Assembly (NCBI RefSeq): GCF_003544815.1
Contig: NZ_CP032100.1
Coordinates: 1,178,001 to 1,242,000 of the forward strand
DNA: 64,000 nt
Source: Arcobacter suis CECT 7833
Lineage (GTDB): Bacteria > Campylobacterota > Campylobacteria > Campylobacterales > Arcobacteraceae
Reading direction: 5' to 3'
The stretch's first letter is position 1. Each line of letters begins with the position of its first letter. Below, piece after piece: positions 11,901 to 31,144 of the stretch. The notes beneath the pieces are model-generated. The model was not told the DNA's origin, made no database searches, and saw nothing but the letters and a program-made list of their open reading frames with translations. The position numbers and the translations under genes are program-made.

Positions 11901-12177
11901 CTAAAATCAAAGCAGAAGAAGATATTCCAAAAGTAGCATTTCCACTTAAGACTTCTTGAGTAATGTTAACACCTTCTTGAAACTCTCTTATTTCAAGCTC
12001 AAGACCAACATCTTTGTAATAACCTTTTTCAATAGCAGCATAAAACCCAGCAAACTCAAACTGATGCTTCCACTCAAGCCGTAAAGTTACTTTTTTTAAT
12101 TCATCTGTTTGGTTTGCAAATAAAAAATTATTTATTATTAGGAATATTAAAATACTTCCCTTTATTATTCTTCTCAA
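8968..12177 (-). CDS. Sensor histidine kinase with NMT1-like plus two SBP_bac_3 periplasmic domains
   Basis: 1069 residues. In order: a signal peptide; an NMT1/THI5-like substrate-binding domain (about 25-320, starting LRLEWKHQFEFAGFYAA); two type-3 solute-binding domains (about 335-560 and 585-805, each with a WPPFNY or WEPFEI motif); one membrane helix (about 815-838); a dimerisation helix with the phospho-accepting His874 in GNISHQWRDS; and a compact ATPase domain (N-box WINLIINTIN, EDNCGN, GLGIK). The TTG start is followed at once by the signal peptide. It lies 16 bases after its response regulator and is presumably its partner. The three periplasmic domains suggest sensing of small amines, amino acids or pyrimidine-like ligands; this is inference. 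Confidence 0.85.
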   Translation of the reverse strand: MRRIIKGSILIFLIINNFLFANQTDELKKVTLRLEWKHQFEFAGFYAAIEKGYYKDVGLELEIREFQEGVNITQEVLSGNATFGISSSALILEKLNKKPVVLIASYFKQNALALVTKPNIKTPADLKNKKIMAVDWEMGHTSLGVILKDAGITSNDYTLVNHDFKVDKFVNGEVDAMSVFITSQPYELDKLGVKYNILNPANFGIYSYDVELFTSEDVINSDMQKVKNFVEATNKGWEYAFKNKEEIVELIYNKYSKRKTKESLLFEANQTEKIFKTNVFKIGAIAPELIKLNADMYTNLDLVDKDYDITTILNNYYFDINNKIQTILTNEEKNYIKNSIIKVHNELNWPPFNYNINGKATGYSIDYMNLLALKVGLNVEYISGPNWNDFLELMKDNKLDVMLNIAKTEDREKYLNFTTPYLKAVDSVFVRKEVNNLKSLDDFKGKTIAVIEGFYEEELFKKYYPEIRLLLVKDSLEGLKKLAFKEVDGFVDSFAVANYFIENNFIINLKPAFEIKDQRFNLSMGLATNKENKLLQEILDKAKKEITVEEEFELKRKWINTNNIGAKSTIPFSVEEEDYLSTKKVITMCVDPDWEPFEILDKDGKHVGIAADIIKLITSKLGIEIKIIPTKTWEESIEFSKAKKCDILSFLNQTPQRESWLTFTKPIFQDPNVIIARNEFPQIKDLSSLENKTIAIPSNTAMYEFFEKDFPNLTIVQVQTEQEAFSLVENNKVDMTVRSLIIAAYSIKKENLFNLKIIAQPIKYKNMLRMGIIKEEPILKDILNKAIKKITNEEIDQIINRHVSIKIPDNNENLMIFIYILILILLIIAIILLWNYQLRKRIAEEIKKNLLHQELMFKQNKKAELGNLIGNISHQWRDSLTKIGYINLNIRARILQKKEISNKFLDESTDQIEKSLDFMSETMQNFLDYYKPSSNISNFEVYDSIKSALTIIDTKIKYSNLEIIFHGDFSVKIEGIRNEWMQVWINLIINTINIVSKREIQNPKLFINIENSQIVFEDNCGNIENEILEQINKNDFKGLGIKMSKEIASKNGKNMIIKNGKEGAIFKFI

Positions 12178-12193: not shown

Positions 12194-12868
12194 TTAGATT
12201 ATCATTTTATAACCAATATCAGGAATAGTATATAAAAAATTCTTACCAAATCTTTTTCTTATTCTTAATATAAAGTTATTTAAGGCACTATCACTCATAG
12301 GTTCATATTCATAAACAAATTTTATAAACATATCTTTAGTAATTATTCTTTTTTTATTTTCACATAACATTTCAAAAAAAAGAATCTCTTTTTTATTTAG
12401 TTCATAAATTTCATTAGTTTTTATAATTCTTTTTAGCTCTTTATCATATTTGAAACCATCTTTTAATTCTACTATTGCTTGATTATTAAATTTTATTTTA
12501 TTTTCACATTTTTCAAAAGCTTCCATTAAAGCTTTAAAATTTATAGGTTTAAGTAAATAGGCACTTAAATTTAGTGACATAGCCTTAAATAATAAATCTT
12601 CATCTTTATAACCTGAAAGTATAAGTATTGGTATTTCATTGTTTGTTTTTCTAATTTCTTCTATAAAATCTAATCCAGATTCTTTTTTTAGATGAATATC
12701 TGAGATTATTAAATCAATGTTTTCATTTTCCAAAATCTTGAATGCTTCTTTTATATTTTTTGCTACAAAAGTTGTTTTTACAAACATATTAAATAAAGAT
12801 ATAGCATTTTCTATAAATTCATCGCTATCTTCTAAAAGTAAAAGATTTTTATCTCCTAAAAACTTCAT
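12194..12868 (-). CDS. OmpR/PhoB-type response regulator
   Basis: 224 residues. The receiver domain (1-115) has the acidic pocket LLEDSD and the phospho-acceptor Asp57 in LIISDIHL, with the conserved lysine in LLKPI. The C-terminal winged-helix DNA-binding domain ends with FLYTIPDIGYKMII. It is first in the minus-strand row with the giant sensor kinase. It is transcribed divergently from the TolC-adaptor-surface protein operon, with the shared 158-base gap carrying a phased direct repeat, so control of that operon is a reasonable inference. Confidence 0.9.
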   Translation of the reverse strand: MKFLGDKNLLLLEDSDEFIENAISLFNMFVKTTFVAKNIKEAFKILENENIDLIISDIHLKKESGLDFIEEIRKTNNEIPILILSGYKDEDLLFKAMSLNLSAYLLKPINFKALMEAFEKCENKIKFNNQAIVELKDGFKYDKELKRIIKTNEIYELNKKEILFFEMLCENKKRIITKDMFIKFVYEYEPMSDSALNNFILRIRKRFGKNFLYTIPDIGYKMII

Positions 12869-13026: not shown

Positions 13027-14841
13027 ATGTTGAAAAAAGTTTCTAGAAGTATAGTTATTTCTGTTGTTGCTTCTTTTGTAATAACAGGTTGTGCAGTAAC
13101 TCCTGAACCTATGTTAAAAGAAGATGTTAAAAAACAAGTTGAAAAAGATTTATCTGTTTTAAGTGAAGTGGTTCAACCCGTAACAAAAGCTATTTCATTA
13201 GATGAAGCAATACAAAGAGGACTTGACCATAATTTAACAAAAAAAGTAAAAGTACTTGAAAGTGCATTATCTCAACAACAATTAGATTTGGTATATTATG
13301 ATATGTTACCAAGTCTTACAACTGCTGCTGGATATTCTGAAAGAAATAATTATGCTGCAAGTGCAAGTACATCATTCATAAATGGAGAACCACAACCTTT
13401 AGGTTCAAATCCTTCATATTCAGTTTCTCAAGAAAAAGAAAGAGTTACAGGTGATATAACATTTGGATGGAATATTTTAGATTTTGGATTATCTTATGTT
13501 AGAGCTCAACAACAAGCTGATAAATTTTTAATTGCAAAAGAAAAAGAGAAAAAAGTAGAACATAATCTTACTCAAGAAATAAGAAGAGCATATTATCAAG
13601 CGGTTTCTTCACAAGATTTATTAAAAAGAATTCAACCTATGATGGCTGAAGTTACAAAAGCTTTAGATGATTCTAAACAAGTACAAAACCAAAGAGTTGG
13701 AAAAACTCCAATGGAATCATTATCTTATCAAAGAGAATTACTTGATATTTTAAGATCACTACATACTTTAGAGAGTAGTTTAATTTCTGCAAAAGTAGAA
13801 TTAGCAGAATTAATGGGATTAAAACCAGGAATAGAGTTTGAATTAGCAGATAAAGTTGAAAAAGATTATCAAATTCCAGAACTTAATATGAGTCTTGAAA
13901 CAATGGAAGTTTTAGCTTTAGAAAATAGACCAGAATTAGCTGAAAGTAGATACCAAGAAAGAATCTCTGAAAAAGAATTAACAGCTGCAAAATTAAAAAT
14001 GTTACCAGGAATTAATTTAAGCACTTCATTATCTTACGAAAATAGTGACTATTTATTAAATAATGATTGGTATTCTTATGGTGCTAATGTTTCTTGGAAT
14101 TTATTAAATGTTTTTAAAGCAAGTACAAATAATAAAGTTGCAAAAACACAAATTGAAGTTGCAAAAGAACAAAAATTAGCTTTATCAATGGCTGTATTAT
14201 CACAAGTACATTTATCTATAGTTAAATTTAATCAAGCTAAAAAAGAGTATTTATTATCTAAAGATTATTTGACTGTTGCCGATGATATTTATACTTTAAC
14301 ACAAGTTGAAAATGATTTAAATGTTAATGGAAGATTGATTTTAATTAAAGAAAAATTGAACAATATTTTAGCAACTCTTAGATATTCATCTTCATATGCT
14401 AATGTTCAAAATAGTTATGGAAGAATTTTTGCTTCATTAGGTATTGATGATAAAAATAGTTCTAAAGTATTAGTAAAAGAAGAAGTTCAAAAAGTAGAAC
14501 AAAACCAAAATTCTGCACCAGTTTTAGAAGTTAATGAAGCAGAAGAACAAAATGTAGTTCAAGATACTATAACCGAAACTTCTATTTTACCAGTTGTAAA
14601 AGCTGAACAAACTCCTAAAAAAACTCAAACAAAAATTGATGATAGTTTTTATAATAGGAATTTTTATGATTCAAAAATTAAAATACATACAGGTGAAACA
14701 CTTTTAATTAATGGAAATAAATATGTTGTAAAAAAATCTGATGACATATCAAAAATTGCAAAAGACAATAAAGTATCAGTAAAAGCTATAGTTATAGAAA
14801 ATTATTGGTTAGTTGAAAATAACAGAGTTAAGTTTAAATAA
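13027..14841 (+). CDS. TolC-family outer-membrane lipoprotein with LysM-like C-terminus
   Basis: 604 residues. A lipoprotein signal with lipobox VITGC (Cys22) leads into two outer-membrane-efflux-protein repeats (about 55-270 and 280-480) with the usual long helices, such as the AQQQADKFLIAKEKEKKVEHN region. This predicts a trimeric outer-membrane channel-tunnel. A low-complexity acidic linker (about 485-540) ends in a LysM-like module (KYVVKKSDDISKIAKDNKVS), which is unusual for TolC and could anchor it to peptidoglycan. It is first in a same-strand row with an adaptor gene 11 bases downstream and the giant surface protein next. It is therefore probably the exit duct for that protein. RBS AAGGG lies upstream. 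Confidence 0.85.
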   Translation: MLKKVSRSIVISVVASFVITGCAVTPEPMLKEDVKKQVEKDLSVLSEVVQPVTKAISLDEAIQRGLDHNLTKKVKVLESALSQQQLDLVYYDMLPSLTTAAGYSERNNYAASASTSFINGEPQPLGSNPSYSVSQEKERVTGDITFGWNILDFGLSYVRAQQQADKFLIAKEKEKKVEHNLTQEIRRAYYQAVSSQDLLKRIQPMMAEVTKALDDSKQVQNQRVGKTPMESLSYQRELLDILRSLHTLESSLISAKVELAELMGLKPGIEFELADKVEKDYQIPELNMSLETMEVLALENRPELAESRYQERISEKELTAAKLKMLPGINLSTSLSYENSDYLLNNDWYSYGANVSWNLLNVFKASTNNKVAKTQIEVAKEQKLALSMAVLSQVHLSIVKFNQAKKEYLLSKDYLTVADDIYTLTQVENDLNVNGRLILIKEKLNNILATLRYSSSYANVQNSYGRIFASLGIDDKNSSKVLVKEEVQKVEQNQNSAPVLEVNEAEEQNVVQDTITETSILPVVKAEQTPKKTQTKIDDSFYNRNFYDSKIKIHTGETLLINGNKYVVKKSDDISKIAKDNKVSVKAIVIENYWLVENNRVKFK

Positions 14842-14852
14842 AAGGTTATTTA

Positions 14853-15572
14853 ATGAAAAAATTTCTAAGTTTTGTTTTGATGGTTTCTTATTTATATGCA
14901 AATGATGATTTCTCAGCAAGAGCTGTAATTCTTTCACTTGATAGGACTGTTTTATCTAGTGAAATAGCTGGTGAAATAATCGAACTTTCAAAAAGTGAAG
15001 GTGATTCTTTTAAAAAAGGAGACACTTTAATAAAAATTGATTGTTCTGTTTATAAAGCTCAAAAAAGAAAAATTGAAGTTGAAAAAGAGATTTCAAAACT
15101 TCAACTTGAGAAAAATAAAAAATTAGATACTTATGGTTCAATTGGTACTTTTGAAATACAAATTTCTCAAGAAAACTACAATAAACAACAAGCTGAAAAT
15201 GATATTGCAGCGATAAATGTATCAAGATGTAGTATTCAAGCACCTTTTGATGGAAGAGTTGCTTCTAAAAAAGTATCAAAACACCAAAGTATTAAACCAC
15301 AAGATGAACTTTTAGAAATTGTAAGTATAGATAATCTTGAAGCTAGAGTTGTTGTACCATCTTCTTGGCTTGTTTGGCTAAAAAGAGGTATGGAATTTGA
15401 TTTAATGATTGATGAAACGAAAACAAAAATTAAAGCTCAAGTTGTACAGCTAGATTCAGTTGTTGATCCAACAAGTCAATCTTTATCTATTAGAGCAAAA
15501 TTAATAAAACCATTTGAAAATATAATTCCAGGTATGAGTGCAACCGCAATTTTCTACCAACAAAAAAACTAA
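14853..15572 (+). CDS. Periplasmic adaptor (HlyD/RND-type membrane fusion protein), short
   Basis: 239 residues. The signal peptide ends near YLYANDD. A split lipoyl half-motif (SSEIAGEIIELSKSEGDSFKKGDTLIKID and IQAPFDGRVASKKVSKHQ) brackets a short coiled-coil hairpin, and a beta-barrel domain follows (DNLEARVVVPSSWL, MSATAIFY at the end). It has no membrane helix beyond the signal. Such adaptors link an inner-membrane partner to a TolC duct. No RND pump or ABC ATPase is next to it, so its inner-membrane partners are probably the two HlyD-fused proteins at 22.8-26.2 kb. It starts 11 bases after the tolC-like gene. Confidence 0.85.
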   Translation: MKKFLSFVLMVSYLYANDDFSARAVILSLDRTVLSSEIAGEIIELSKSEGDSFKKGDTLIKIDCSVYKAQKRKIEVEKEISKLQLEKNKKLDTYGSIGTFEIQISQENYNKQQAENDIAAINVSRCSIQAPFDGRVASKKVSKHQSIKPQDELLEIVSIDNLEARVVVPSSWLVWLKRGMEFDLMIDETKTKIKAQVVQLDSVVDPTSQSLSIRAKLIKPFENIIPGMSATAIFYQQKN

Positions 15573-15588
15573 TATCAAGGACTAAGTC

Positions 15589-18500
15589 ATGAAAAAAGTA
15601 AATAAGAAAAAACCTATAATTAGTGCTTTAGAGCAAAGAATACTTTTTGATGGAGCTGCTGTTGCAACGGCTGTTGATGTACTTGATAATAGTAGTTTTA
15701 GCTCAAGTTCAAATGATGCCACAACTAACAATGATGTTACGAGTAATAATGCTGAAAATAGTGTTCATGGTGTACAAGCTACTCAAAGTTTTGAAAGAGA
15801 TAGAAGAGAAGTTGCCTTTGTAGATTCTTCTGTTGAAGATTTTCAAACTTTAGTTGATGGAATAAAAGATGGTGTTGAAATTTTTGTTTTTGATGGAAGT
15901 AAAGGTGGAGTTGATCAAATAGCTTCTATTTTAGAAAAAGAAACAAATATTGATGCTATACACATTTTATCACATGGAAGCACAGGTGAAATTACCCTTG
16001 GAACTGATAAATTAAATGGTGATACTTTAGATGATTATAATGAACAATTACAAATAATAAAAGATTCATTATCTGAAAATGGAGATATTTTACTTTATGG
16101 TTGTAATGTGGCAAAAGATGGAAGTGGACAAGAATTTATTGAAGCACTTGCAAATTTAACACAAGCAGATATTTCAGCATCTGATGATATTACAGGTGAT
16201 TCTGCTTTAGGTGGAGATTGGAATTTAGAAGTTAGTAATGGTAATATTGAGACTAATGTAATCAATGTTAATACTTTTTCAGGAGAATTAGGTACCCCTT
16301 CTATTACAAATTTAAATAATATGACTTATATTGAACAATCGTCAGCCACTGTAATTGATAGTAATATTTCAATTACTAATGGTGGAAGTTATGATGGAAA
16401 ATATATAGAATTTTCTATTTCTAGTGCAAAATCTACAGAATCTTTAACGTTAACTAATGCTGCTAATGTAAATGCTTCTGGAGCTATTTCTTTTGTTGGT
16501 TCTTCTGTATATTTGGGTAATGGTACTAGTAGAGATATTATCGGAAGTATTGATTCTACATATAATGGATTAAATGGTCAGAATTTAAGAATTAATTTTG
16601 TAAGTGCTTTTACTAATCCAAGTTTTGAAACAGGAAATATTACTGGTTGGACATCAATGAATCAAATGATAAATTTAGGTGTTACATCAATTGCTGGATT
16701 TGTTTCTCAAGATACTAGTACTTATTCAGATAATGCAAATTCTGGTGGAAATGATGATGATGTACCTTCTGCAACATATAATACGACAGTTTCTAATACT
16801 ACAACTAGTAGTGGTTCATATTCTTTACAATTAACTAGTAGCATGACAACATTGAATGGTTATGATGTTGTTCATGGACCAGCTGTGTATAGTGATGTAT
16901 TTGAAGCATCAGCAGGAGATGTTATTTATTTTGACTGGAGAGCTTATGCTGGTGGTGATGATTTTGATGCTTTTGGATATATAGTTAATACAACTACTGG
17001 TGCTCAAATAGAAGTATTAGATGCAACGGGAGGTTCAAATACTGATTGGACAACAAAAGCAACAACAATTTCAACAGCTGGAACTTATAGATTTGTTTTT
17101 GTTAATGGTACTTATGATGCCTCAGGAGGACAAGCTGCTGGAGGAACATTGTATATTGACAATGTAAGAGTATTTGGAAGTAAAGTTAATGATAGTGTAG
17201 TAAGTACTATTTCTAGTCAAATTGCATATTCAAATACGTCTGATAATCCTGATGCAACAAGAACATATACTATTACAGCAGTTGATTCAAATGGTTTATC
17301 ATCTTCAGCCTCAAGTACAATTAATATCACAGCCGTAAATGATCCTCTTACCGTAACAGTTAGTAATACTTCAAATGGATTTACAGAAACAACAAATATG
17401 AATCATCAATCTTTAAGTCAATCAGGTACTATAAGCTTTAACGATGTTGATAACAATGTTACTATATCTCATGCTTCAAATAGTATTACTTGGAGTGGAG
17501 GAACATTGGATACAACTCTTGCTAATACTTTAATTAATGGATTTACAACTTCAATAACAGATGGTACTCATTCAGGAAATGGAACTTGGGCTTATAATGT
17601 AGCAGATGTTGATTTGAATTTTTTATCAGAAGGTGAAACAATCACATTTAGTTATACAGTAACTGCAATTGCTGGAAGTGAAACAATAACTAGAACTATA
17701 AATTTTACAATAACAGGAACTAATGATGCTCCTGTATTTGGAACAATAGTTCCAACAAATCCTGTAATAGAAGCTCCAACTGTTGGAAATACAAGTCCTA
17801 GTGCAGGAATAGAAGTATTTAATAATGGTTCATTAAGATTTGGTAATGGTTCAATAGATTCAGTAAATGCAAGTACAGGTATGTTAGAACAACCTTTTTA
17901 TTACAAAGATGGAGCTTGGTACCAATTAACATTTAGTACATATCAATTAAATATGGCTATTGCTGCTGATTATAATAATGGAAGTGCTAAAACAGATGTG
18001 GATTGGAATCTTGAGGGTACAGTAAATCTGACACCAACTTTTACAAATACAAACGTTGATAATTCAGGTTTTAATACAGCCACAGGTACAGGAACAATTG
18101 TTTGGACAGGTGAAATAACAGTTGGAACAGCTCATTTAAAAGTTACAAATGTATATACATTAACTGCTGATTCACAATTTATTAAAGCAAATACATATAT
18201 AAAAAATATTGGAAGTACTTCTACTGAGAATCTTAGATTTTGGGTTGGAACAAGAGATGATTATGTAGCTGGAAGTGATAGTCCTGCAAAACAAAAAGGA
18301 AATATTGTAGATGGTGAATTTACAATGACTTCAAATGCAAATGAACAAGCAAAAGCTATAAAAGTTTACACAGGAGATGGTGCAAATGCAACTGCCGTAT
18401 TATTTTATTCTACAAATGAAAACGTAAATACAGTTATTGCACCAGGATATGGTTGGAGTACATCAAATCAATATGCGCCAGGAATAGATCCTTTAAATTC

Positions 18501-21500
18501 AGTATATAATCAATCTTATGATGATGGTGGATATGCAATGTTTACTAATCTAAATAATGTTGCAGCTGGTGATACTGTTATGTATGACTGGTATTATGCA
18601 GCTGGTAAAGTTAGTGAACTTTCTAATATCACATCAAGTTTAGAAAGTGCAACATCTGATAATCTTAAAGAAAGTGGTAATTCATTAGTATTGACAGATG
18701 ATTATACAATTACAGATTTAGATTTAACAGATGTTGTAAATGTAGCTGTAAGTTCTGTAGTAGTTACTCCACCAAATGGTTTAACAATTCCTGCTAATTA
18801 TACTAATGAAATAATAAAAGGAATGCTAAATATTAATTCAAATCCAGTTATAGATGGTGATAGTACAACGGGTACTGTTTCTTGGAATTTTAATTCAGGA
18901 GATGATTATAGTTTTAATTTCTTGGGTGCAGGACAAACCCTTACTTTAGTATATACTTTGACTGCAACTGATGGTGAAAATGCAACTGCTACAACAACAG
19001 TGACTATTTCTATAGATGGAAGAAATGATGCTCCTGTTATAACAGTAGATGCCGGGGATTCTGATTTAAAAAATATAAATGAAACGAATTCTACTCTCAC
19101 AACAAATGGTACATTAAGCATAACTGATGTTGATATTATTGATAATGCTTTTACAGTTACAAAAACAAATGTAGTAGCATCAGGAATGACAACGGGATTA
19201 GTATCAAATAATAATGCTTTATTAAACATGATTACTGTTAATACACAAGGTAAAGATATTAGTTGGTCATTTAATTCTGGAAATGAATATTTTAAATATT
19301 TACCAGCTGGTGAAACATTAACACTTACATATACTATAAAAGTAACAGATGCAAATAATGGAACATCTAACAAAACAATAACAATAGAAATTGTAGGAAT
19401 AAATGATCCTGTTACGCTTAATTCACCCGCAACAATCTATTACATGGATACAGATGGTGCAGATAATTTTGCCACAACTTCGGGAAGATTAACAGCAAGT
19501 GATATAGATAGTGGAACGAGTTTTATTTATGGAATAGATGGAGCAACTTCAAATGGTGATGGAACTTTTACAAAAGTAGGAACTTACGGAACTTTAGTAA
19601 TAAATAGTTTAACTGGTAATTATGTATATACTCCAAACTCAGCAGTTATAAATTCTTTATCTGTAAGTGCAGCTGAAACATTTGATATGACAGTTAGTGA
19701 TGGAAGTGGTTCAACAAATACAAAAACTTTAACTATTGATATTGAATCTGTAAATGATGCTCCACTTTTAGGAGGTGTTGCTTCAACTCCAACATTTACT
19801 GAAAATGGTTCGGCTATTCAAATTGATTCAACTATTACTGTTACAGATTTAGAAGGTACAAGTTATGATAGTGGTTATGTAACTTTCTCAATAACAGAAC
19901 ATAAAGAATCAGAAGATAAATTATCAATTTTAAATGTTGGTGGTATTAGTGTAAATGGTACTAATGTAACTTATGGTGGATTAATAATTGGAACAATAGA
20001 TTCAGTTTACAATGGGGAACACGGAAAAGATTTAAGAATAAATCTAAATTCAAATGCTTATTCACCACAAGTACAAGCTTTAGCAAGAGCAATAGCTTTT
20101 TCTAATCCAACAGATGATTTAAGTGGGTTATCAAGAGGGCTTGAAATAAAAGTAAATGATGGTGGAAATGGCGATAGAACGACTGCTAGATATAGTACAA
20201 AAGAAGTAAATGTAAATATTCAAACAATTAATGATTTACCAACAATAAATTTAGGAACAAATAACTTTATTGTAGAAAAATCTATTTCTACTAATCCAAA
20301 TGGAGAGTTATCTTTAGGTTCATTATTAAGTGTTGGTGATTTAGATGGGGATAGAATAACTGTAAAAATTGAAACAACTAATTATGGATTAATTACGATA
20401 AATGATTCAATTACTAATGGTGTTGATAGTTCTCAAATTAGTGGTAATGGTACTAGAGTTGTGACAATAACTGGAACAATAGATGAAATAAATAGAACTT
20501 TAGCTGCAGCAAATGGAATAACTTATGTTGCTGGGTTAGGGAAAGATTATATTACTCCAGGAGCTGATTATTTAAAAATAACTGCTACAGATGATTTATC
20601 AGGAGTAACAACTTCTCAAAAGTTAGTAATGGTATTACCTGCTGTTCCAAATATATATAGTGATAACATTGTAGGTGCAGAAGATGGCACAGTAATGATA
20701 AATATTAACGATTTAGTAACAGATATAAATGATAATGGGGGAACTTATGTTTTTGGAACGGGAACTCCTGATATAACTGATGCAAATGGAAATATAACAA
20801 CACATGGAACAATTATACCTTTTGATAGTAGTACAAATATTTATGATTCAAATTCAAAAGTTATTGGGTATCAATTAGAAAATGGTAAAATTATTTTAAA
20901 TGATGGTAAAAATAGAACAGATAATGCAGATTTTGCTAAATTTACATTTATTCCAAATGAAAATTGGTCAGGTTCTCAAACATTTTTCTATCAATTTACT
21001 TCAAATGATGGTGAAGTAAGTAATATAGCTCAAGTTGCTTTATTTGTAACAGCTGTAAATGATGCTCCTGTTGTTACAGTTACTAATAATATTACAATAA
21101 ATGAAGATAATTCAATAGTATTTGAAAATGCAAATGCAATAACTTTATCGGATATTGATGTGGTTGATCCAACACAAAAATTAGATTTAACATTACGTGT
21201 AGAGAATGGAAAATTAGAGTTATCTCAAATGACAGGATTAACTATTTTAGAAGGAGTAAATAACTCTTCTTCAATTAAAATCCAAGGTAATTTAACAGAT
21301 TTACAAAATGCAATTTCAGCTTTAAAATATACACCAAATCAAGATTATAACGGTTCAGATAGTTTAACTATAAAATTAAATGACAGGGCAAATGTTGGTT
21401 CAGGTAATGCTTTAGAAACAACACAAGTTGTAAATATTTCAATAACTGCTGTAAATGATGCTCCTGAGTTTTCAAACCAATATGATGAAGTAAGTGAAGG

Positions 21501-22758
21501 GGATCAAATTAGAGGTGTTTTACCTGCTAGTGATATAGATAGTAATTCTATTACATTTAGTATAAATGGAACAGCTCCTGTTGGTTTTGTATTAAATAGT
21601 GATGGTTCATATATTTTTGATTCTTCAAGTTATGATTATATAACTCAAGGAGAAATTGAAACAATTGTAATATCTGTTACAGTAACAGACACAGAAGGTT
21701 TAACAACAACTAAAGATTTCTCAATTGCAATCACTGGAACAAATGATGCTCCAACAGTTTCTTTAGTAAATATTGATGCAGAAACTTCATTTGGTAAAGA
21801 ATTCTCAAAAGAGATAAAATATTTATTTAGTGATAAAGATTTAAATGATACTTTTACATTTAAAGCAGATAATCTTCCTAACGGTTTAACAATTGATCCA
21901 ATTACAGGAATAATTTCAGGTAGAGCTTCTGAATCAGGGAAATTTATAATTACTATTATTGGAAGTGATTCAGGAAGTCCTTCTTTAAGTGTTTCAAGAA
22001 CATTTAATATGTTAGTTGTTGCTCCACCACAAGTTGAAACTAAACCAACAATTGATGCTTCACCTCTTCCAAAAGGTAATAATGATACTAATGGCTCACC
22101 TACAACTTTAAATAATTATGGTGGAAATGATAGTAATTTAGGAACATTAAATTATAGTGCTAGTGAAGGTTTTGTTGAAAGTGTAGGGCAAGGTTTTTTA
22201 AATACAGGTACAGTTGATGGAAACTCTTCAAATGATGGAGCAAATGATAATAAAAATACTAATCCAACAAATAGTGCTAATGATGGAAAAGGTGTAATTC
22301 AAGCTAATGTAGATTTAAATGTACTAACAAATGGGCAAATAGTTTTTAATGACACAAATAAAGACTCTTTTTCAATTGTAGGAATTACAATTGAAGATAT
22401 TAAAGTTGAAAACAATAATATTGAAATAAAAGTTGTTGATGTTAATCTTGCACAAAACTTTATTGTTACACAAATTGATGGAACTCCTTTACCTGCTGGA
22501 TTATTTTTTGATCCAAAAACAGGTAGTATTTCAGGAGATATACCTGAAGGTTTAGAAAAATTAAATATAAGTATTAAAGCTATTAGTTCAGATGGAACAA
22601 CTAGAGTTTTAAATTTAAAACTTGATTTAAAAGAGTTACAAAATAAAAATCAAGCTAGTTCAGAAACACAAGGTTTTATTGGATTAAAAGAACAAATAGC
22701 TTTTGAAAATCAAAAGTTAGATGGTTATGGAAGTTATGTTACGGGGTTATTTGCCTAA
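15589..22758 (+). CDS. Giant repetitive surface protein: LEPR-like start, DUF4347, NDxP-type repeats
   Basis: 2389 residues. No Sec signal peptide. The N-terminus carries ALEQRILFDGA (13-23), a variant of the LEPR-xLL motif of very large surface proteins. Residues about 75-230 form a DUF4347 domain with HILSHG (His129) and LLYGCNVA (Cys172). A jelly-roll-like region follows (about 345-530). Then come cadherin/VCBS-like units bounded by nine NDxP motifs, interrupted by an unassigned domain at about 725-1010. Two putative-Ig (He_PIG-like) modules (LPNGLTIDPITGIISG and LPAGLFFDPKTGSISG) lie near the C-terminus, which ends DGYGSYVTGLFA. No RTX nonapeptides are seen. It is probably an exported adhesin or biofilm matrix protein, carried by the flanking transport genes. 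Confidence 0.85.
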   Translation: MKKVNKKKPIISALEQRILFDGAAVATAVDVLDNSSFSSSSNDATTNNDVTSNNAENSVHGVQATQSFERDRREVAFVDSSVEDFQTLVDGIKDGVEIFVFDGSKGGVDQIASILEKETNIDAIHILSHGSTGEITLGTDKLNGDTLDDYNEQLQIIKDSLSENGDILLYGCNVAKDGSGQEFIEALANLTQADISASDDITGDSALGGDWNLEVSNGNIETNVINVNTFSGELGTPSITNLNNMTYIEQSSATVIDSNISITNGGSYDGKYIEFSISSAKSTESLTLTNAANVNASGAISFVGSSVYLGNGTSRDIIGSIDSTYNGLNGQNLRINFVSAFTNPSFETGNITGWTSMNQMINLGVTSIAGFVSQDTSTYSDNANSGGNDDDVPSATYNTTVSNTTTSSGSYSLQLTSSMTTLNGYDVVHGPAVYSDVFEASAGDVIYFDWRAYAGGDDFDAFGYIVNTTTGAQIEVLDATGGSNTDWTTKATTISTAGTYRFVFVNGTYDASGGQAAGGTLYIDNVRVFGSKVNDSVVSTISSQIAYSNTSDNPDATRTYTITAVDSNGLSSSASSTINITAVNDPLTVTVSNTSNGFTETTNMNHQSLSQSGTISFNDVDNNVTISHASNSITWSGGTLDTTLANTLINGFTTSITDGTHSGNGTWAYNVADVDLNFLSEGETITFSYTVTAIAGSETITRTINFTITGTNDAPVFGTIVPTNPVIEAPTVGNTSPSAGIEVFNNGSLRFGNGSIDSVNASTGMLEQPFYYKDGAWYQLTFSTYQLNMAIAADYNNGSAKTDVDWNLEGTVNLTPTFTNTNVDNSGFNTATGTGTIVWTGEITVGTAHLKVTNVYTLTADSQFIKANTYIKNIGSTSTENLRFWVGTRDDYVAGSDSPAKQKGNIVDGEFTMTSNANEQAKAIKVYTGDGANATAVLFYSTNENVNTVIAPGYGWSTSNQYAPGIDPLNSVYNQSYDDGGYAMFTNLNNVAAGDTVMYDWYYAAGKVSELSNITSSLESATSDNLKESGNSLVLTDDYTITDLDLTDVVNVAVSSVVVTPPNGLTIPANYTNEIIKGMLNINSNPVIDGDSTTGTVSWNFNSGDDYSFNFLGAGQTLTLVYTLTATDGENATATTTVTISIDGRNDAPVITVDAGDSDLKNINETNSTLTTNGTLSITDVDIIDNAFTVTKTNVVASGMTTGLVSNNNALLNMITVNTQGKDISWSFNSGNEYFKYLPAGETLTLTYTIKVTDANNGTSNKTITIEIVGINDPVTLNSPATIYYMDTDGADNFATTSGRLTASDIDSGTSFIYGIDGATSNGDGTFTKVGTYGTLVINSLTGNYVYTPNSAVINSLSVSAAETFDMTVSDGSGSTNTKTLTIDIESVNDAPLLGGVASTPTFTENGSAIQIDSTITVTDLEGTSYDSGYVTFSITEHKESEDKLSILNVGGISVNGTNVTYGGLIIGTIDSVYNGEHGKDLRINLNSNAYSPQVQALARAIAFSNPTDDLSGLSRGLEIKVNDGGNGDRTTARYSTKEVNVNIQTINDLPTINLGTNNFIVEKSISTNPNGELSLGSLLSVGDLDGDRITVKIETTNYGLITINDSITNGVDSSQISGNGTRVVTITGTIDEINRTLAAANGITYVAGLGKDYITPGADYLKITATDDLSGVTTSQKLVMVLPAVPNIYSDNIVGAEDGTVMININDLVTDINDNGGTYVFGTGTPDITDANGNITTHGTIIPFDSSTNIYDSNSKVIGYQLENGKIILNDGKNRTDNADFAKFTFIPNENWSGSQTFFYQFTSNDGEVSNIAQVALFVTAVNDAPVVTVTNNITINEDNSIVFENANAITLSDIDVVDPTQKLDLTLRVENGKLELSQMTGLTILEGVNNSSSIKIQGNLTDLQNAISALKYTPNQDYNGSDSLTIKLNDRANVGSGNALETTQVVNISITAVNDAPEFSNQYDEVSEGDQIRGVLPASDIDSNSITFSINGTAPVGFVLNSDGSYIFDSSSYDYITQGEIETIVISVTVTDTEGLTTTKDFSIAITGTNDAPTVSLVNIDAETSFGKEFSKEIKYLFSDKDLNDTFTFKADNLPNGLTIDPITGIISGRASESGKFIITIIGSDSGSPSLSVSRTFNMLVVAPPQVETKPTIDASPLPKGNNDTNGSPTTLNNYGGNDSNLGTLNYSASEGFVESVGQGFLNTGTVDGNSSNDGANDNKNTNPTNSANDGKGVIQANVDLNVLTNGQIVFNDTNKDSFSIVGITIEDIKVENNNIEIKVVDVNLAQNFIVTQIDGTPLPAGLFFDPKTGSISGDIPEGLEKLNISIKAISSDGTTRVLNLKLDLKELQNKNQASSETQGFIGLKEQIAFENQKLDGYGSYVTGLFA
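17332..21753 (+). repeat. Nine NDxP domain-boundary repeats inside the giant protein gene
   Basis: The Asn codon of the (V/T/I)NDxP boundary motif falls near 17338, 17722, 19024, 19402, 19753, 20230, 21058, 21454 and 21742. Most spacings are about 95-160 codons, as in VCBS/cadherin-like tandem units. Two longer intervals, after 17722 and after 20230, hold other domains or degenerate units. DNA identity between units is low, so recent duplication is not evident. Confidence 0.75.
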
Positions 22759-22777
22759 ATAAAGGAAACAGTTAATA

Positions 22778-24121
22778 TTGGAAAACATATCAAAACTTCT
22801 ACAGTTAGAACATAACTGTAGAAATTGTGAAAGTATAAAAGAGCTTTATTATCAAATAGTTAATGAAACAAGAACCCTTGTGAATTATTCACAAGGAGTT
22901 TTATTAACTATTGATTTTAGTGGAAAATATAAAGTTGTAGGAATATCTGATATTTCTGTTGTTGATTCTACTTCTCCTTATGTTCAATGGATAGAAAATG
23001 TAATAATAGATTTAAATAATAATGAAAAATCAAAAGATATTTTTGTAGTTGATACAAAAACTGATTTAAAACAAATAGATTTTAAATCGATGCATGAATT
23101 TTCACCTTCAAATATTTTATTTATTCCTTTAAAAAGTATAAAAGAAAATAGAGAAATAAACTATATTTTACTTTTATTCAAAGAAGAAGGATGGTTGGAA
23201 AAAGATATATTGATTTTAAAACATCTTTCATCATCTTTAGCATATTTTTTATTTGCAATGAGAAGTACAGGAATTTCTCAAATTTTTAAAAAAATCTCTT
23301 TAAAAAATAAGTATTTAAAAATATCAATATTTTTATTGATATTTTTAATGTTTTTACCAGTTCGACTCTCTGTTTTAGCACCATTAGAAGTTGAGGCTAA
23401 AAATCCTTATGTGGTAACTTCTCCTTTAAATGCTGTTATTGAAGAAGTAAAAGTTTTTCCAAATGATAAAATAGAAAAAGAACAATTACTTGTTAAGTTT
23501 GATGATGTGGATTTTAATAATAACTATTTAGTTGCAAAAAGAACTTTAGATGTTGCAAATGCACAACTTCATACAGTAAAACAAAGCAGTTTTTTTGATG
23601 CTACTCAAAAAAGTCAAATTTCACAATTAGAAAGTCAAGTAAAACTAAAAGAAGCAGAATTAAATTTTGCACAAGAGCAGTTGGGCAAAACAAAAATTTA
23701 TGCAAAAGAAGATGGAATAGCAATTATTAATAATCCAAATGATTGGAAAGGGAAACCTGTAACAACAGGAGAAAGAGTTTTTTTAATAGCAAAACCCCAA
23801 AGTATTGAATTAAAAATAATGTTACCTGTTAGTGAAGCTATTTTTTTAGAAGAAAATGCTTTGATTAAAGCTTTTTTTGATAATGACCCAACAAATTCTT
23901 GGAGTGGAAAAGTTAAATATATTTCATATAAACCTGAATTAACGGAACAAAATGTTTTATCTTATAAAATTACAGCAGATTTTGATGATATAAAAGAAAA
24001 TGGTTATATTCCTTCTATTGGATTACGAGGAACTGCAAAAATTTATTCAAAAAAAGTTACGCTGTTTTTTTATCTATTTAGAAAACCAATAACTGCCGTT
24101 AGACAATGGATAGGTTGGTAA
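22778..24121 (+). CDS. GAF-like domain, membrane helix and HlyD adaptor fusion
   Basis: 447 residues. Residues 1-165 look like a cytosolic GAF-type sensor fold. One membrane helix follows (about 181-201, ISIFLLIFLMFLP), then a periplasmic HlyD part with a lipoyl half-motif (SPLNAVIEEVKVFPNDKIEKEQLLVKFD), a coiled-coil hairpin and a barrel (LKIMLPVSEAIFL). TTG start with AAAGGA upstream. It begins 19 bases after the giant gene and overlaps the M50 gene by one base (TAATG), so the products are probably made together. It could be an inner-membrane adaptor that responds to a cytosolic ligand. This domain pair is unusual; function inferred from context. Confidence 0.75.
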   Translation: MENISKLLQLEHNCRNCESIKELYYQIVNETRTLVNYSQGVLLTIDFSGKYKVVGISDISVVDSTSPYVQWIENVIIDLNNNEKSKDIFVVDTKTDLKQIDFKSMHEFSPSNILFIPLKSIKENREINYILLLFKEEGWLEKDILILKHLSSSLAYFLFAMRSTGISQIFKKISLKNKYLKISIFLLIFLMFLPVRLSVLAPLEVEAKNPYVVTSPLNAVIEEVKVFPNDKIEKEQLLVKFDDVDFNNNYLVAKRTLDVANAQLHTVKQSSFFDATQKSQISQLESQVKLKEAELNFAQEQLGKTKIYAKEDGIAIINNPNDWKGKPVTTGERVFLIAKPQSIELKIMLPVSEAIFLEENALIKAFFDNDPTNSWSGKVKYISYKPELTEQNVLSYKITADFDDIKENGYIPSIGLRGTAKIYSKKVTLFFYLFRKPITAVRQWIGW

Positions 24122-26235
24122 TGCCTGAACAAGAGATTTTATTACCAAAAATTAGGGATGATTTAAAACTAATAGAGACTTCTGTAAGTGAAGATGGTTC
24201 TAAAAGATGGCTTTTATTTGATCCTATTCAAAATAAATATTTTAATATTGGAATTGATACTTTTGAATTAATTTCAAATTGGCAAAGTGATATTGAAATA
24301 GATGAATTTCTTAGAATATTAGAAGATAAAAATTATGATATTGAAAAAGAATCTTTACAAACTTTTGTTGATTTTTTAATAAATAATAATTTGATTTTAT
24401 GTGAAAAACCCAAAGACACACAAAGAATGGTAAATATTCTTAGAAAGTCAAAACAAAATATATTTAAATGGTTAATTCATAATTATTTATTTATAAGAAT
24501 TCCTCTATTAAAACCTGATAAATGGCTAGAAGATAATAAAAATAAAATCAATTTTTTATATTCAAAACTTTGGCAAAATATAGTTTTGGTTTTAGGATTT
24601 ATTGGAATTGTTTTTGTATTAAGAGATTGGGAAAATTTTATTTCAACTTTTATGTATCTTTTTTCTAAAGAGGGATTTTTTTACTATTTTTTATCTTTAG
24701 TTTTTGTAAAAAGTATGCATGAATTAGGTCATGCTTTTACAGCAAAAAGATTAGGCTGTAAAGTGCCTACCATGGGAGTTGCATTTTTAGTTTTATTTCC
24801 TGTTTTATACACAGATACAACAAATGCTTGGAAATTAAAATCAAAATATCAAAGATTACAAATAGTCCTTGGTGGAATAAAAGTTGAGTTATATTTAGCT
24901 TTAATAGCTACTTTTTTATGGTCATTTGCTCCTATTGGAATATTTAAAAGTATATTATTTATTATTGCAACCACAAGTTGGATTAGTTCTTTACTTATAA
25001 ATATTAGTCCATTTTTACGGTTTGATGGATATTATATTTTATCAGATATTACAGATAGCAAAAACTTACAACCTCGTTCATTTGCAATGGCTAAATGGTT
25101 CATTAGAAAAAATATTTTAGGTTTAGAAGAAGAAAAACCAGAAATATTAGTAAAAGAAAAAGAGAATTTTTTTATTATTTATGCCATATTAACTTGGATT
25201 TATAGATTATTTTTATTTTTAGGAATAGCTTTATTAGTATATTATTTTGCTTTTAAAGTTTTAGGAATAATTTTATTTTTAGTTGAAATAGTTTGGTTTA
25301 TTTTATTGCCAGTATATAATGAATTAAAAATATGGTGGAGCAAAAAAGATATGGTTAAATTTAATACAAAAAATAAAATCTCTTTATTTTTAGTTGTTTT
25401 TTTACTATTTTTAATATTTATTCCTTGGAATAGCAGTATTAAAATGCCCGCAATAATAGAATCAAAGAATTATTTTGAGTACTATTCAGCCGAAGATGGT
25501 TATATTGAAGAAATATATTTTTCAAATGGTCAAAATGTAAAAAAAGACCAACTTTTATTAAAAATAAAATCTCCAGAAATAGAGTATAAAATAGCTCAAA
25601 TTCAAGAAGAAATAGAGTCATTAAACTTTGAGATAAATAAACAAGCAGGTTTCAAAGAAAACCTAGACAAAAGATTTATTTTAGAAGAGAATTTATTGAA
25701 AAAAATAAATGAATTAGAAGGTTTAGAAAAAATTAATAAAAAATTTGAAGTAAAAGCGGATTTTGATGGAAAAATATATTTTTATGATGTATTCAAAATA
25801 AATCAATGGATTAGCAAAAAAGCCCCAATTTTTGTTTTATATGATAATTTAAATTATAGAATAGTTGGTTTTTGTAATGAAAATGATTTTAAACTTTTAA
25901 AAGAAAATTCAAATAGCAAATTTATTTTCACTTCAGGAGATTTAAAAGATATTCATCAAAAAGTTACGAATATTTCAAAATTTTCAATTCCATATTTAGA
26001 ATTTCCTGAGTTATCTTCTGATTTTGGTGGAGAAATTGCAACTAGAAAAGATTTAGATAAAAGATTAAAAACAGAACAAGCTTATTATAAAATCACTGTT
26101 GATTTAGAAGAAAATAATTTGGATTTAAAAAATAGAAAAACAGGTGTTTTAGTAACTCAAGGAGAATCAATGAGTTTGATTTCAAGAATTGCTAAAAAAA
26201 CAATTTCTGTTTTAATAAGAGAGAGTGAATTCTAA
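24121..26235 (+). CDS. Site-2-type M50 metalloprotease fused to a HlyD domain
   Basis: 704 residues from the overlapping ATG at 24121; an ATG five codons upstream lacks a ribosome-binding site. Residues about 20-95 resemble a PqqD-like winged helix (RWLLFDPIQNKYFNIG then IDEFLRIL). Multiple membrane helices carry the zinc site HELGH (200-204) and the distal NISPFLRFDGYY (Asp302). A helix near 425-440 leads into a periplasmic lipoyl/HlyD half (YSAEDGYIEEIYFSNGQNV). No PDZ domain, unlike RseP. Related M50-HlyD proteins occur in peptide-export clusters. Here it may recognise, cleave or gate export of the giant protein. Catalytic residues look intact; role inferred. Confidence 0.8.
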   Translation: MPEQEILLPKIRDDLKLIETSVSEDGSKRWLLFDPIQNKYFNIGIDTFELISNWQSDIEIDEFLRILEDKNYDIEKESLQTFVDFLINNNLILCEKPKDTQRMVNILRKSKQNIFKWLIHNYLFIRIPLLKPDKWLEDNKNKINFLYSKLWQNIVLVLGFIGIVFVLRDWENFISTFMYLFSKEGFFYYFLSLVFVKSMHELGHAFTAKRLGCKVPTMGVAFLVLFPVLYTDTTNAWKLKSKYQRLQIVLGGIKVELYLALIATFLWSFAPIGIFKSILFIIATTSWISSLLINISPFLRFDGYYILSDITDSKNLQPRSFAMAKWFIRKNILGLEEEKPEILVKEKENFFIIYAILTWIYRLFLFLGIALLVYYFAFKVLGIILFLVEIVWFILLPVYNELKIWWSKKDMVKFNTKNKISLFLVVFLLFLIFIPWNSSIKMPAIIESKNYFEYYSAEDGYIEEIYFSNGQNVKKDQLLLKIKSPEIEYKIAQIQEEIESLNFEINKQAGFKENLDKRFILEENLLKKINELEGLEKINKKFEVKADFDGKIYFYDVFKINQWISKKAPIFVLYDNLNYRIVGFCNENDFKLLKENSNSKFIFTSGDLKDIHQKVTNISKFSIPYLEFPELSSDFGGEIATRKDLDKRLKTEQAYYKITVDLEENNLDLKNRKTGVLVTQGESMSLISRIAKKTISVLIRESEF

Positions 26236-29368: not shown

Positions 29369-31144
29369 TTAAATTAGCTGTTTTTTTACAAACTCCAAAT
29401 AGTGTCCTTCTTTTTCTTCCAATTCTTTGTGATTTCCACTTTGTACAAGTTTTCCATCATCTATTACATAAATCATATCAGCGTTTTTTACTGTACTTAA
29501 TCTATGAGCTATTGTAATTACGGTTTTTTCTTTTAAAAATTCTTCTAATTCACTAAAAAGTTTTACTTCTGTATGAACATCTAAAGCAGAAGTTGATTCA
29601 TCAAATATCACAACAGCAGGATTTGCAATAATCATTCGGGCTATTGATAATCTTTGTCTTTGCCCTCCACTTAATCTAATTCCATGTTTTCCAACAAGTG
29701 TTTCAAGACCATTTGGCATATTTTCTACTGTTTCGTAAAGTTGTGCTATTTTTAAAGCCTTAAAAATTTCAATATCACTTATATTTTCATTTCCCATTGT
29801 GATATTAAATTTTAGAGTATTATTAAACAAAATAGGCATTTGTAAAACTAAAAAGATATTTTCCCTTAAATTTTGTCTATTTAAATCATCAAGACTAATA
29901 TTATTAAAAAAAATATCTCCAGAATTTTTAGAATAAAATCCTGAAATTATATTTGCAATTGTAGTTTTCCCACTTCCACTTGCCCCGATAATCGCCACTT
30001 TTTCACCTGATTTTATATCAAAAGAGATATTTTTTAAGATTTCTTTATCTTCATTATAAGAAAAACATAAATCTTTTATTGAAATATCTACTTTTTTAGA
30101 GTTTGAATCAAGAATTAATGTTCCATTTTTTTCTATTCTTAAATCTAAGATTTTATTTATTCTATTCATTGCAGTTTTCGCACTAGCATAGGCATATTGA
30201 ATAGTTAAAATATCTTGAACAGGAGTCATAATAAACCAAATATATCCAAACATAGCAAACATTAAACCAATAGATAAATCACTGTAAGCCACAAGCAAAA
30301 GTCCAACAGCTCTAAAAACTTCAAAGGCAATTAGAAAAATTGTAAATGAAAATCTTTCATAAGCAACACTTTTATAGTTAAATTCATTTGAGGTTTTTTG
30401 AATGTTTTGGGCTTTTGAAATTGAATCTTGAAAGAAAAACTTTTCTTTATTACTAGCTTTTATTTGCCCAAATAAGTCTAAAGTTTCATTTATATTATTT
30501 TGAAATTCTTCAATTGCTTTATTTTCTTCTTTTTTCAAAAGTCCAGTTTTATTGGCTATTTTTTTTGAAATTATCATAATAATTGGTTGAATAAATAAAA
30601 TCATAAGCCCTAAAATTGGATCAATCGTAATAATTACAATAGCAACTGCAACTAAAGTTAAAATAGAAGCTATAAATTTACTAGCAATTGAAACTATAAA
30701 ATTATCTAAAGTATTAACATCAGTTACTAAATTTGCTCCAATAGAACCAGAACCTAAACTCTCATATTCATTCATGTTTACAAGTTCAAGATGATTTAGT
30801 AGTTTTTCTCTTATTTTAAAAGTTACATATTTTGATATTTTTGTGAATATTTTTGTGATTAATACACTAAAAAGAAAATAAATCACACGAAGAAATAAAA
30901 CAATAAAAGTTACAATTGCAATGTAATAAAAAGCAGTTGTACTTCCAAAAAGTTCATTTATGTTATTTACAAAAAAATCAGGTTTATTTAGTAGTACTTC
31001 ATCAACTAAAAGTGGTAAAAGCAAAGGAATAGGAACACTTATTAGTATAGCTATAATTGTAAGTATTTGCCCAATAATAAGAGATTTTTTATTATCAAGA
31101 AGTAGTTTAAATATATATTTTAAAGATATTTTATTATTCATCAT
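29369..31144 (-). CDS. ABC exporter, fused permease and ATPase (MsbA/LmrA type)
   Basis: 591 residues. Six membrane helices (about 15-310) are followed by an ATPase domain with Walker A GASGSGKTT, signature LSGGQRQRLS, Walker B VVIFDEST and the H-loop IAHR. It works as a homodimer, or as a heterodimer with a partner that is not seen here. There is no C39 peptidase domain. It overlaps the upstream regulator gene by four bases (ATGA), so the two are translationally coupled. The substrate may be a lipid, peptide or drug. It is on the opposite strand from the TolC/HlyD cassette and 3 kb away, with no direct link. Confidence 0.9.
   Translation of the reverse strand: MMNNKISLKYIFKLLLDNKKSLIIGQILTIIAILISVPIPLLLPLLVDEVLLNKPDFFVNNINELFGSTTAFYYIAIVTFIVLFLRVIYFLFSVLITKIFTKISKYVTFKIREKLLNHLELVNMNEYESLGSGSIGANLVTDVNTLDNFIVSIASKFIASILTLVAVAIVIITIDPILGLMILFIQPIIMIISKKIANKTGLLKKEENKAIEEFQNNINETLDLFGQIKASNKEKFFFQDSISKAQNIQKTSNEFNYKSVAYERFSFTIFLIAFEVFRAVGLLLVAYSDLSIGLMFAMFGYIWFIMTPVQDILTIQYAYASAKTAMNRINKILDLRIEKNGTLILDSNSKKVDISIKDLCFSYNEDKEILKNISFDIKSGEKVAIIGASGSGKTTIANIISGFYSKNSGDIFFNNISLDDLNRQNLRENIFLVLQMPILFNNTLKFNITMGNENISDIEIFKALKIAQLYETVENMPNGLETLVGKHGIRLSGGQRQRLSIARMIIANPAVVIFDESTSALDVHTEVKLFSELEEFLKEKTVITIAHRLSTVKNADMIYVIDDGKLVQSGNHKELEEKEGHYLEFVKKQLI

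Follow-up and report, generated by a model that had tools for sequence, protein, structure and literature searches.

We analysed a window of 64,000 nucleotides from the genome of Arcobacter suis CECT 7833 (2.64 Mb in one contig), in which a run of five genes on the + strand (13027-26235) encodes a TolC-type channel, an adaptor, a giant protein, a HlyD protein and a protein that joins an M50 site-2 protease (S2P) core to a HlyD-like part (Table 1). The subject of this report is the N-terminal domain of the last of these proteins. The first-pass annotation, made from the sequence alone, had taken it for a PqqD-like winged helix, the fold of the recognition elements (RREs) of ribosomally synthesized and post-translationally modified peptide (RiPP) pathways, and had proposed that it captures the leader of the giant protein. 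The three strings quoted in support are present in the + strand frame from the ATG at 24121, at the place given for them; this ATG overlaps the stop codon of the upstream gene (TAATG), and a second in-frame ATG lies at 24106. Our analysis confirmed that residues ~8-95 belong to the PqqD/RRE fold family, and from the sequences compared the RRE is likely to be the reader of the leader. Relatives of the window protease that carry a name are from Aliarcobacter and Sulfurospirillum (69-79% identity).

Table 1. Features of the export cassette (window coordinates) and positions of the cassette SecA genes in related records.
Feature	Position	Strand	Evidence
TolC/NodT-type outer membrane channel	13027..14841	+	OEP E 2.6e-38
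Periplasmic adaptor, RND_mfp type	14853..15572	+	TIGR01730 111.8 bits, cut-off 94.9
Giant protein, 2389 aa, DUF4347 then VCBS/cadherin/Ig-like repeats	15589..22758	+	DUF4347 E 3e-55; VCBS E 1.2e-32
Basic start and LEPR-type leader MKKVNKKKPIISA-LEQRILFDGAA	15589..15660	+	NF012209 scores, motif table
Second HlyD protein with extra N-terminal domain	22778..24121	+	HlyD_D23 31.9 bits
RRE-M50-HlyD fusion protein, 704 aa (709 aa from ATG 24106)	24121..26235	+	Open reading frame; PF02163 E 1.4e-8; HlyD_3 E 2.9e-5
RRE/PqqD-like domain, residues ~8-95	24142..24405	+	AlphaFold2 model, Foldseek/VIA-align, hhalign, PF05402 in relatives
M50 membrane core, residues ~140-431, ~seven long hydrophobic helices	24538..25413	+	Full-length AlphaFold2 model
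HExxH zinc motif HELGH	24718..24732	+	Kept in 39/39 aligned rows
Asp 302, second M50 motif RFDGYY	25024..25026	+	Kept in 39/39 aligned rows
HlyD-like adaptor part, residues ~432-704, predicted periplasmic	25414..26232	+	HlyD_3 match, full-length AlphaFold2 model
Cassette SecA	L078:9557-11512, L119:8488-10413, L059:19859-21817, L047:17099-19081, L063:19892-21853, L150:14141-16138		Pfam

Taken by itself, the sequence of the window domain gave no Pfam match, the PqqD model (PF05402) did not match it in a search of the whole window genome, and phmmer against the PDB returned only weak matches to seemingly unrelated proteins. The relation to PqqD was found through relatives of the protease, which form two groups, clade A (window included) and clade B. 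At E<=10, PF05402 matched 7/21 rows of the family alignment (best 8.3e-7), the window being among the 14 non-matching ones. In clade B, scores above the curated cut-off of 23.4 bits were obtained for two RRE-M50 copies on a single Pseudosulfitobacter plasmid (30.5 and 27.1 bits; their identity as RRE-M50 proteins was confirmed by tblastn), for Alisedimentitalea (23.8 bits) and Methylosinus (28.7 bits); four other clade B domains reached 16.9-21.3 bits. Within clade A, G272, a genome of the same order as the window (20.8 bits), and Tistrella (15.0 bits) scored below the cut-off, and PF05402 had no match in members L052, L050 and L056. A Streptomyces homologue (L151) of the daptide protein MpaP also had no PF05402 match at E<=0.1, though the RRE of MpaP is published, and the failure of the window domain is therefore not telling.

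Comparison of profiles linked the two clades to each other and to PqqD. With hhalign, clade A aligned with clade B (96.6%, E 4.9e-10), clade B with three PqqD-family proteins (89.7%, E 1.8e-6) and clade A with three PqqD-family proteins (73%, score 32.7), the best scores among 100 column shuffles per pair being 20.2, 20.2 and 20.0, respectively. When the clade B profile was compared with all PDB chains, the top three were PqqD 3g2b (E 0.0016), TfuB1 6jx3 (E 0.0073) and PqqC/D 5sxy (E 0.063); a mixed-clade profile placed PqqD 3g2b second (E 0.15), after a ribosomal protein. The profile relation to PF05402/PqqD is thus found both in relatives that score above the cut-off and in the chain from clade A through clade B to PqqD.

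An AlphaFold2 model of the window domain (predicted local distance difference test, pLDDT, 82.7; predicted template modelling score, pTM, 0.69) contains strands at residues 16-19, 30-34 and 39-43 followed by helices at 45-52, 60-69, 76-88 and 97-111. This is the βββααα order of RREs plus a fourth helix, and the full-length model repeats it. The first four VIA-align rows for the domain model were TfuB1 with leader (Z 8.3), PqqD (8.3) and TbiB1 with leader (8.2 and 7.8); Z values of about 8 are in a range that unrelated models can reach, and the fold assignment is persuasive because of the identity of the top rows and not because of these values. ThcOx, GdmN, TigE, NovN, a heterocyclase, sactipeptide enzymes, TruD, MadB and MccB came next. 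Most of the top rows carry RRE domains, and GdmN and NovN are carbamoyltransferases (PF02543). RRE fusions in PF02543 carbamoyltransferases are described in the part of PMC12710340 consulted here. With Foldseek, TbiB1 and TfuB1 chains stood within ranks 3-9, with no match at E <0.001. The PF05402 matches of relatives, hhalign with its shuffles and the matches of the AlphaFold2 model together bear out the PqqD-like winged-helix fold that had been read in the N-terminus of the M50-HlyD protein, and the comparison with PqqD/RRE profiles suggested at that time does find a PqqD relation, by way of the family profiles and the model.

The HExxH motif and the Asp of the second motif, which mark an M50 site-2 protease, are intact in all aligned rows (three genomes being entered twice). 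In the full-length AlphaFold2 model (pLDDT 79.1, pTM 0.56) the RRE is followed by helices and these by the HlyD part. Its long helices span residues 149-168, 183-210, 242-269, 274-294, 345-376, 379-407 and 416-431, and we read these seven as putative membrane helices, a count that skips shorter or charged helices such as 170-179, 302-311 and 316-331. Since their number is odd, the RRE would lie in the cytosol and the HlyD part in the periplasm. The daptide protease model NF041824 (daptide_HExxH) matched the window protein with E 1.8e-37 and 129.4 bits, below its cut-off of 300, and all seven relatives scanned with 137.7-159.1 bits. The best matching stretch begins within the RRE in the window and in 6/7 relatives, and only at residue 95 in L045. 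Phage records contained no relative, and in a PHROGs search the only matches were weak ones to the HlyD region.

As the first-pass annotation described it, the giant protein starts with MKKVNKKKPIISALEQRILFDGAAVATA, a basic stretch and then the LEPR-type leader at the usual position of a signal peptide. The LEPR-XLL model NF012209 (cut-off 17) scored this giant at 17.9 bits in a genome search, above the cut-off, and at 11.4 bits in a whole-protein hmmscan, below it. Giants encoded with the protease begin likewise, with a mostly basic stretch and then LExR; the exceptions to LExR are in clade B, where L is replaced by F in one row and by I in another. What follows LExR differs between the clades. 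All 26 clade A rows of our table, many of which are closely related to the window, have [FY]D[GA], as does a 27th from separate reading (Indioceanicola copy 2); [LM]xAD stands in 11/11 clade B rows as well as in Alisedimentitalea (LAAD) and Methylosinus (LNAD). In the search pattern, position 8 had to be D or S and position 9 A or G, other variants being found by reading only; the table lost two rows to this pattern (LEPRIMFDAAM of Indioceanicola copy 2 and LEPRLLLAAD of Alisedimentitalea, with A at position 8), and the Methylosinus leader LEPRVLLNAD, with N at position 8, was also found by reading.

The distance from the first Met of the frame to the motif is 10-70 residues. In clade A leaders the maximum 15-residue Kyte-Doolittle mean ranges from 0.50 to 2.13, with 1.77 for the window, and in clade B leaders from 0.58 to 1.45; such maxima lie below those of a typical signal-peptide core. 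Most leader-bearing proteins are giants, the shortest of them having 1,472 residues (G319). The longest, an open frame of 16,201 residues that starts with a clade B leader, also belongs to G319 (G319:C1:1169611). Shorter lengths come from frames cut by the end of a contig or stretch, except possibly in Azospirillum (1,266 residues) and Caballeronia.

The leader occurred in close association with the protease. Genome searches were confined to Campylobacterota; 397 genomes were drawn twice, the listed ones agreeing between draws and the remainder being presumed the same, and two protease candidates were scored per genome. The protease was found in 10 of the 397 and a leader above cut-off in 8, all of them among the 10. 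The two others carry the motif by reading (LEQRVLFDGAA in G297 and LEPRIMFDAV in G272). Among 60 nearer relatives, 13 had a full-length protease and 10 a leader above cut-off, again all within the 13; of the remaining three, two (G304 and G297) show a giant frame whose leader scores below cut-off, and in G305 the contig stops on the 5' side of the protease, at the expected place of the giant. Another ten genomes of this set gave a partial protein match only, mostly to the HlyD part. For plasmids, 19 surroundings were picked for variety from 81 matched records, and three more (Methylosinus, Streptomyces and Calothrix) from 75. A leader above cut-off occurred in 14 of the 19 records with the protease (9/14 and 5/5), a number that rose to 17 by reading, which added LESRQLFDGAA, LEARYMFDAAA and LEARLMFDAAA. 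The Indioceanicola record has three leaders elsewhere, the nearest ~45 kb from the protease. With 2/19 plasmid records as exceptions, a substrate with a conserved leader motif is thus encoded alongside the RRE.

Some of these records deserve separate mention. A near-identical (at least 99%) clade A protease gene is present in 24/5426 complete Escherichia coli genomes, in 22 of them over most of its length, and 21/25 of its places are on plasmids; a Citrobacter copy of this type (L046:2321-22085) has the cassette and the leader LESRQLFDGAA. The Phyllobacterium record (L050:8812-17118) has HlyD and RRE-M50 genes, next to a protein annotated with a HrpK domain, with no annotated TolC or adaptor and no leader match, and may have a different substrate or represent a decayed cassette. 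Finally, Calothrix encodes an S2P (L152:11170-12588) whose N-terminus reads as PqqD-like, with no recognised substrate nearby; Pfam recognises its M50 part and, weakly, DUF3267, but no PqqD there.

The two protease clades pair with the two leader classes, clade A with [FY]D[GA] and clade B with [LM]xAD. G319 holds both clades, each of them matched: its clade A protease stands beside LEPRVLFDGAA, and its clade B protease downstream of two LExRTLLSADP giants, one of which is the 16,201-residue frame. In both G319 and G362, two giants with a clade B leader are found per one clade B protease. Trees were built from 35 rows, 7 of them of clade B, omitting the near-duplicates L005, L007, L008 and L068 and lacking the clade B proteases of G362, G385 and Methylosinus. 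Clade B is a single branch on the tree of the protease core (100/100) and on that of the RRE (99/91, with long-branch warnings), the latter placing G272, of clade A, beside clade B.

A SecA of ~640-665 residues adjoins the protease in 8/10 clade B cassettes (L047, L059, L061, L062, L063, L078, L119 and L150), those of L061 and L062 resting on tblastn. The six scanned by Pfam have the SecA_DEAD, P-loop and preprotein-binding domains and no SecA_SW or SEC-C match, whereas the housekeeping SecA of the window genome has both. These cassette SecAs are annotated as translocase, preprotein translocase subunit SecA, DEAD/DEAH box helicase or prepilin peptidase. No cassette SecA was found in the stretch searched for Thalassospira (L060) and G385 (L122), the latter having one SecA genome-wide. 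Two SecAs were found in each of G319 and G362, and one in each of five clade A-only genomes searched, the window's included (G000, G311, G297, G209 and G272), where the sole SecA is the housekeeping one. The data point to a SecA-type motor for clade B export; that the housekeeping SecA is the motor in clade A is a guess. Several clade B cassettes also have a small DUF3467 gene between the giant and the adaptor (L063:14499-14804, L047:12708-13049, L060:15663-15959, L062:14529-14831, L150:9744-10064) and, in Campylobacterota, small open reading frames (ORFs) upstream of TolC with no convincing Pfam match (L078:28-456, L119:53-433). These genes are candidates for a chaperone role.

Around the window protease, no ABC (ATP-binding cassette) ATPase is encoded among the five cassette proteins. 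The closest ABC-type gene by reading (LSGGQ) is at 29369-31144 on the opposite strand, so that the cassette lacks the cognate ABC transporter of type I secretion. In relatives, the second HlyD protein can carry a GAF-like domain (PF01590, 35.7 bits in L119:4458-6326, and 14.3 bits, below cut-off, in L078:5513-7393), which is perhaps a sensor that regulates export; a Pfam scan of the window's second HlyD protein gave no GAF match. A sensor of 1069 residues (8968-12177), which has a kinase part and several regions resembling solute-binding proteins, lies divergent from the cassette together with a response regulator (12194-12868), and the pair may control the cassette.

The closest precedent comes from daptide biosynthesis, where MpaP is an RRE-S2P fusion and the precursors carry an ELExMEAP leader motif (PMC10036551; MpaP is named there at a single place, and no experiment on it was seen). 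In MpaP/DapP proteins (NF041824) as in the window protein, an S2P with HExxH carries an RRE at its N-terminus; profile comparison over RRE and protease, as well as a multiple alignment, shows the two to be homologous, and the leaders of their substrates share an LE core, ELExMEAP in daptide precursors and LExR in the giants. A BLAST comparison of the window protein with one MpaP covered only the protease core, while the MpaP homologue could be aligned over the RRE in the multiple alignment. Unlike MpaP/DapP, the window protein is fused to a HlyD adaptor and its substrate is mostly a giant protein. The daptide-type cluster of Streptomyces (L151), whose precursors have repeated ELE motifs, served as the cluster layout for comparison, and none of the daptide genes mpaA, B, C, D and M was noticed among the window ORFs read (~5.5-34 kb). 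Because the NF041824 score is far below its cut-off and no daptide genes were seen, we regard the window protein as a relative of the daptide protease family and not as a member.

Other known systems share single parts of the cassette. PqqD (PF05402) and the lasso peptide RREs TfuB1 and TbiB1, the top matches by profile and structure, have the same winged-helix fold, but they are small separate domains serving short precursors, whereas the window domain is fused to a membrane protease-adaptor. EpeP/YydH is also an M50 protease, and its model NF058609 matched 4/7 relatives scanned weakly, in the M50 region only; the part of PMC10885120 consulted ascribes to EpeP of epipeptides a presumed role in both cleavage and export of its substrate, and notes that deletion of EpeP did not wholly abolish production. 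Type I secretion (HlyB/HlyD/TolC) resembles the cassette in its HlyD adaptors, TolC channel and giant repeat-rich substrate; the cassette differs in having an N-terminal leader and, in the inner-membrane slot, an M50 protein in place of an ABC ATPase. LEPR-XLL (NF012209) proteins and DUF4347 giants have the same leader and first domain as the window giant, and to our knowledge no export partner has been named for them. We also looked at the RSP of R27, an exported Ig-like protein encoded on IncHI, as a relative studied by experiment, and set it aside on its description, which in the part consulted makes it depend on a plasmid type IV secretion ATPase and mentions neither HlyD nor TolC. A mapping of RREs lists 13 recognition motifs, among them YxxP, Lx4F, HIxxI and FxLD, and LExR was not noticed in the part consulted (PMC12710340); PMC12670281, in its consulted part, concerns other daptide enzymes. 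Among the papers of one open-access library, we found none that joins an RRE, an S2P-HlyD fusion, a LEPR leader and an export cassette. What is new here is an RRE-S2P fused to HlyD, placed in an export cassette with TolC whose substrates are mostly giant, and often (8/10 in clade B) beside a dedicated short SecA.

We consider it probable that the RRE on the S2P-HlyD fusion binds the LExR leader of the giant for protease-gated HlyD/TolC export. The cytosolic RRE would bind the LExR core of the N-terminal leader, and the M50 core would probably trim or gate the leader around the box that follows, [FY]D[GA] in clade A or [LM]xAD in clade B, so that LExR may be read by the RRE and the box by the protease core. 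The chain would then pass through an assembly of M50-HlyD, HlyD, adaptor and TolC to the outside, as the gene content suggests, with a SecA-type motor presumably supplying the push. The capture of the leader by the PqqD-like domain, as first proposed, is favoured by the fold, the conserved leader, its close though imperfect co-occurrence with the protease and the RRE-S2P precedent. The second half of that proposal, the transfer of the chain to the protease/export gate, is an inference.

Several results weigh against this proposal. In the fold comparisons, the clade A profile found none of PqqD, TfuB1 and PqqC/D in the PDB, its sole row being a TPR protein (E 0.24), and the lower VIA-align rows included two DNA-binding winged-helix domains (Z 5.6 and 4.6), the PqqD crystal structure 3g2b reaching only Z 4.3 over 55 residues. 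The pairing of leader and protease also has gaps: the protease lies on plasmid records of Phyllobacterium and Magnetospirillum that have no leader, G317 of Campylobacterota has a protease fragment cut by the contig end and no leader match, and in Caballeronia the leader stands on a frame of only 400 residues. Moreover, the tree shows that the class switch happened once, and the difference between leader classes therefore counts as one observation and not as many. Finally, over 24 leader-protease pairs (one leader being used where a record has several), leader distances correlated with those of the protease core at r 0.86, of the RRE at 0.71 and of the HlyD part at 0.69, and the partial correlation of RRE and leader given the core was -0.13 for all 24 pairs and -0.23 for clade A; in the 7 pairs of clade B it was +0.47 (p 0.05). 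The covariation across cassettes that had been suggested as a check thus came out in the co-occurrence and the matched clades, and did not single out the RRE by distance: leader and protease travel and change together, yet the RRE in particular does not stand out, because the correlation favours the core.

This last result fits a reading in which the M50 membrane core itself recognises the leader as a protease substrate, the RRE surviving from a RiPP-type ancestor as a structural or regulatory remnant, and the class-specific box right after LExR indeed resembles a cleavage box. We nevertheless find this quite improbable: the RRE has been kept from Campylobacterota to Alpha-, Beta- and Gammaproteobacteria, and the correlation may favour the core because the longer core alignment is less noisy. 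The leader could instead be a Sec-like signal read by SecA/SecYEG, with the M50 protein mainly a dedicated signal peptidase or periplasmic dock and the RRE helping only indirectly. The dedicated SecA of most clade B cassettes, the basic stretch before the leader and the moderate hydrophobicity of some clade A leaders, the window's among them, agree with this. It is nonetheless unlikely, as clade B leaders are less hydrophobic, the motif can lie as far as 70 residues in, the six scanned cassette SecAs have no match to the SecA wing/scaffold or SEC-C domains, and the RRE would be left without a purpose. As for an RRE-M50 protein that does not handle the giant at all, and serves instead in signalling by regulated intramembrane proteolysis or in the maturation of a small peptide that escaped notice, its nearest characterised relatives do mature RiPPs and a sensor kinase/response regulator pair does adjoin the cassette. 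The protein is, however, fused to HlyD and adjoins TolC and giant genes, the leader co-occurs with the protease, and no RiPP enzyme genes were noticed in the window ORFs read or in the 13 of 19 plasmid neighbourhoods that are annotated, which makes such a role very improbable.

Returning to leader capture by the RRE, the cassettes may even represent an undescribed secretion system for giant proteins, in which the RRE captures the LExR leader, a SecA-type motor, in clade B the dedicated short SecA, pushes chains as long as ~16,000 residues along a HlyD/TolC conduit gated by the protease, and two leader dialects keep two systems apart in one cell; this wider proposal is a tentative one, and we put it at somewhat less than an even chance. 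If true, RiPP leader recognition would extend beyond small peptides to the routing of some of the largest bacterial proteins, and one tag-and-grab device would serve both tiny and enormous products. The LEPR-XLL motif, annotated yet unexplained, gains a candidate reader, and the exit of giant adhesin-like proteins that have no clear signal peptide would be reduced to a simple question of binding between a peptide of ~20 residues and a domain of ~100.

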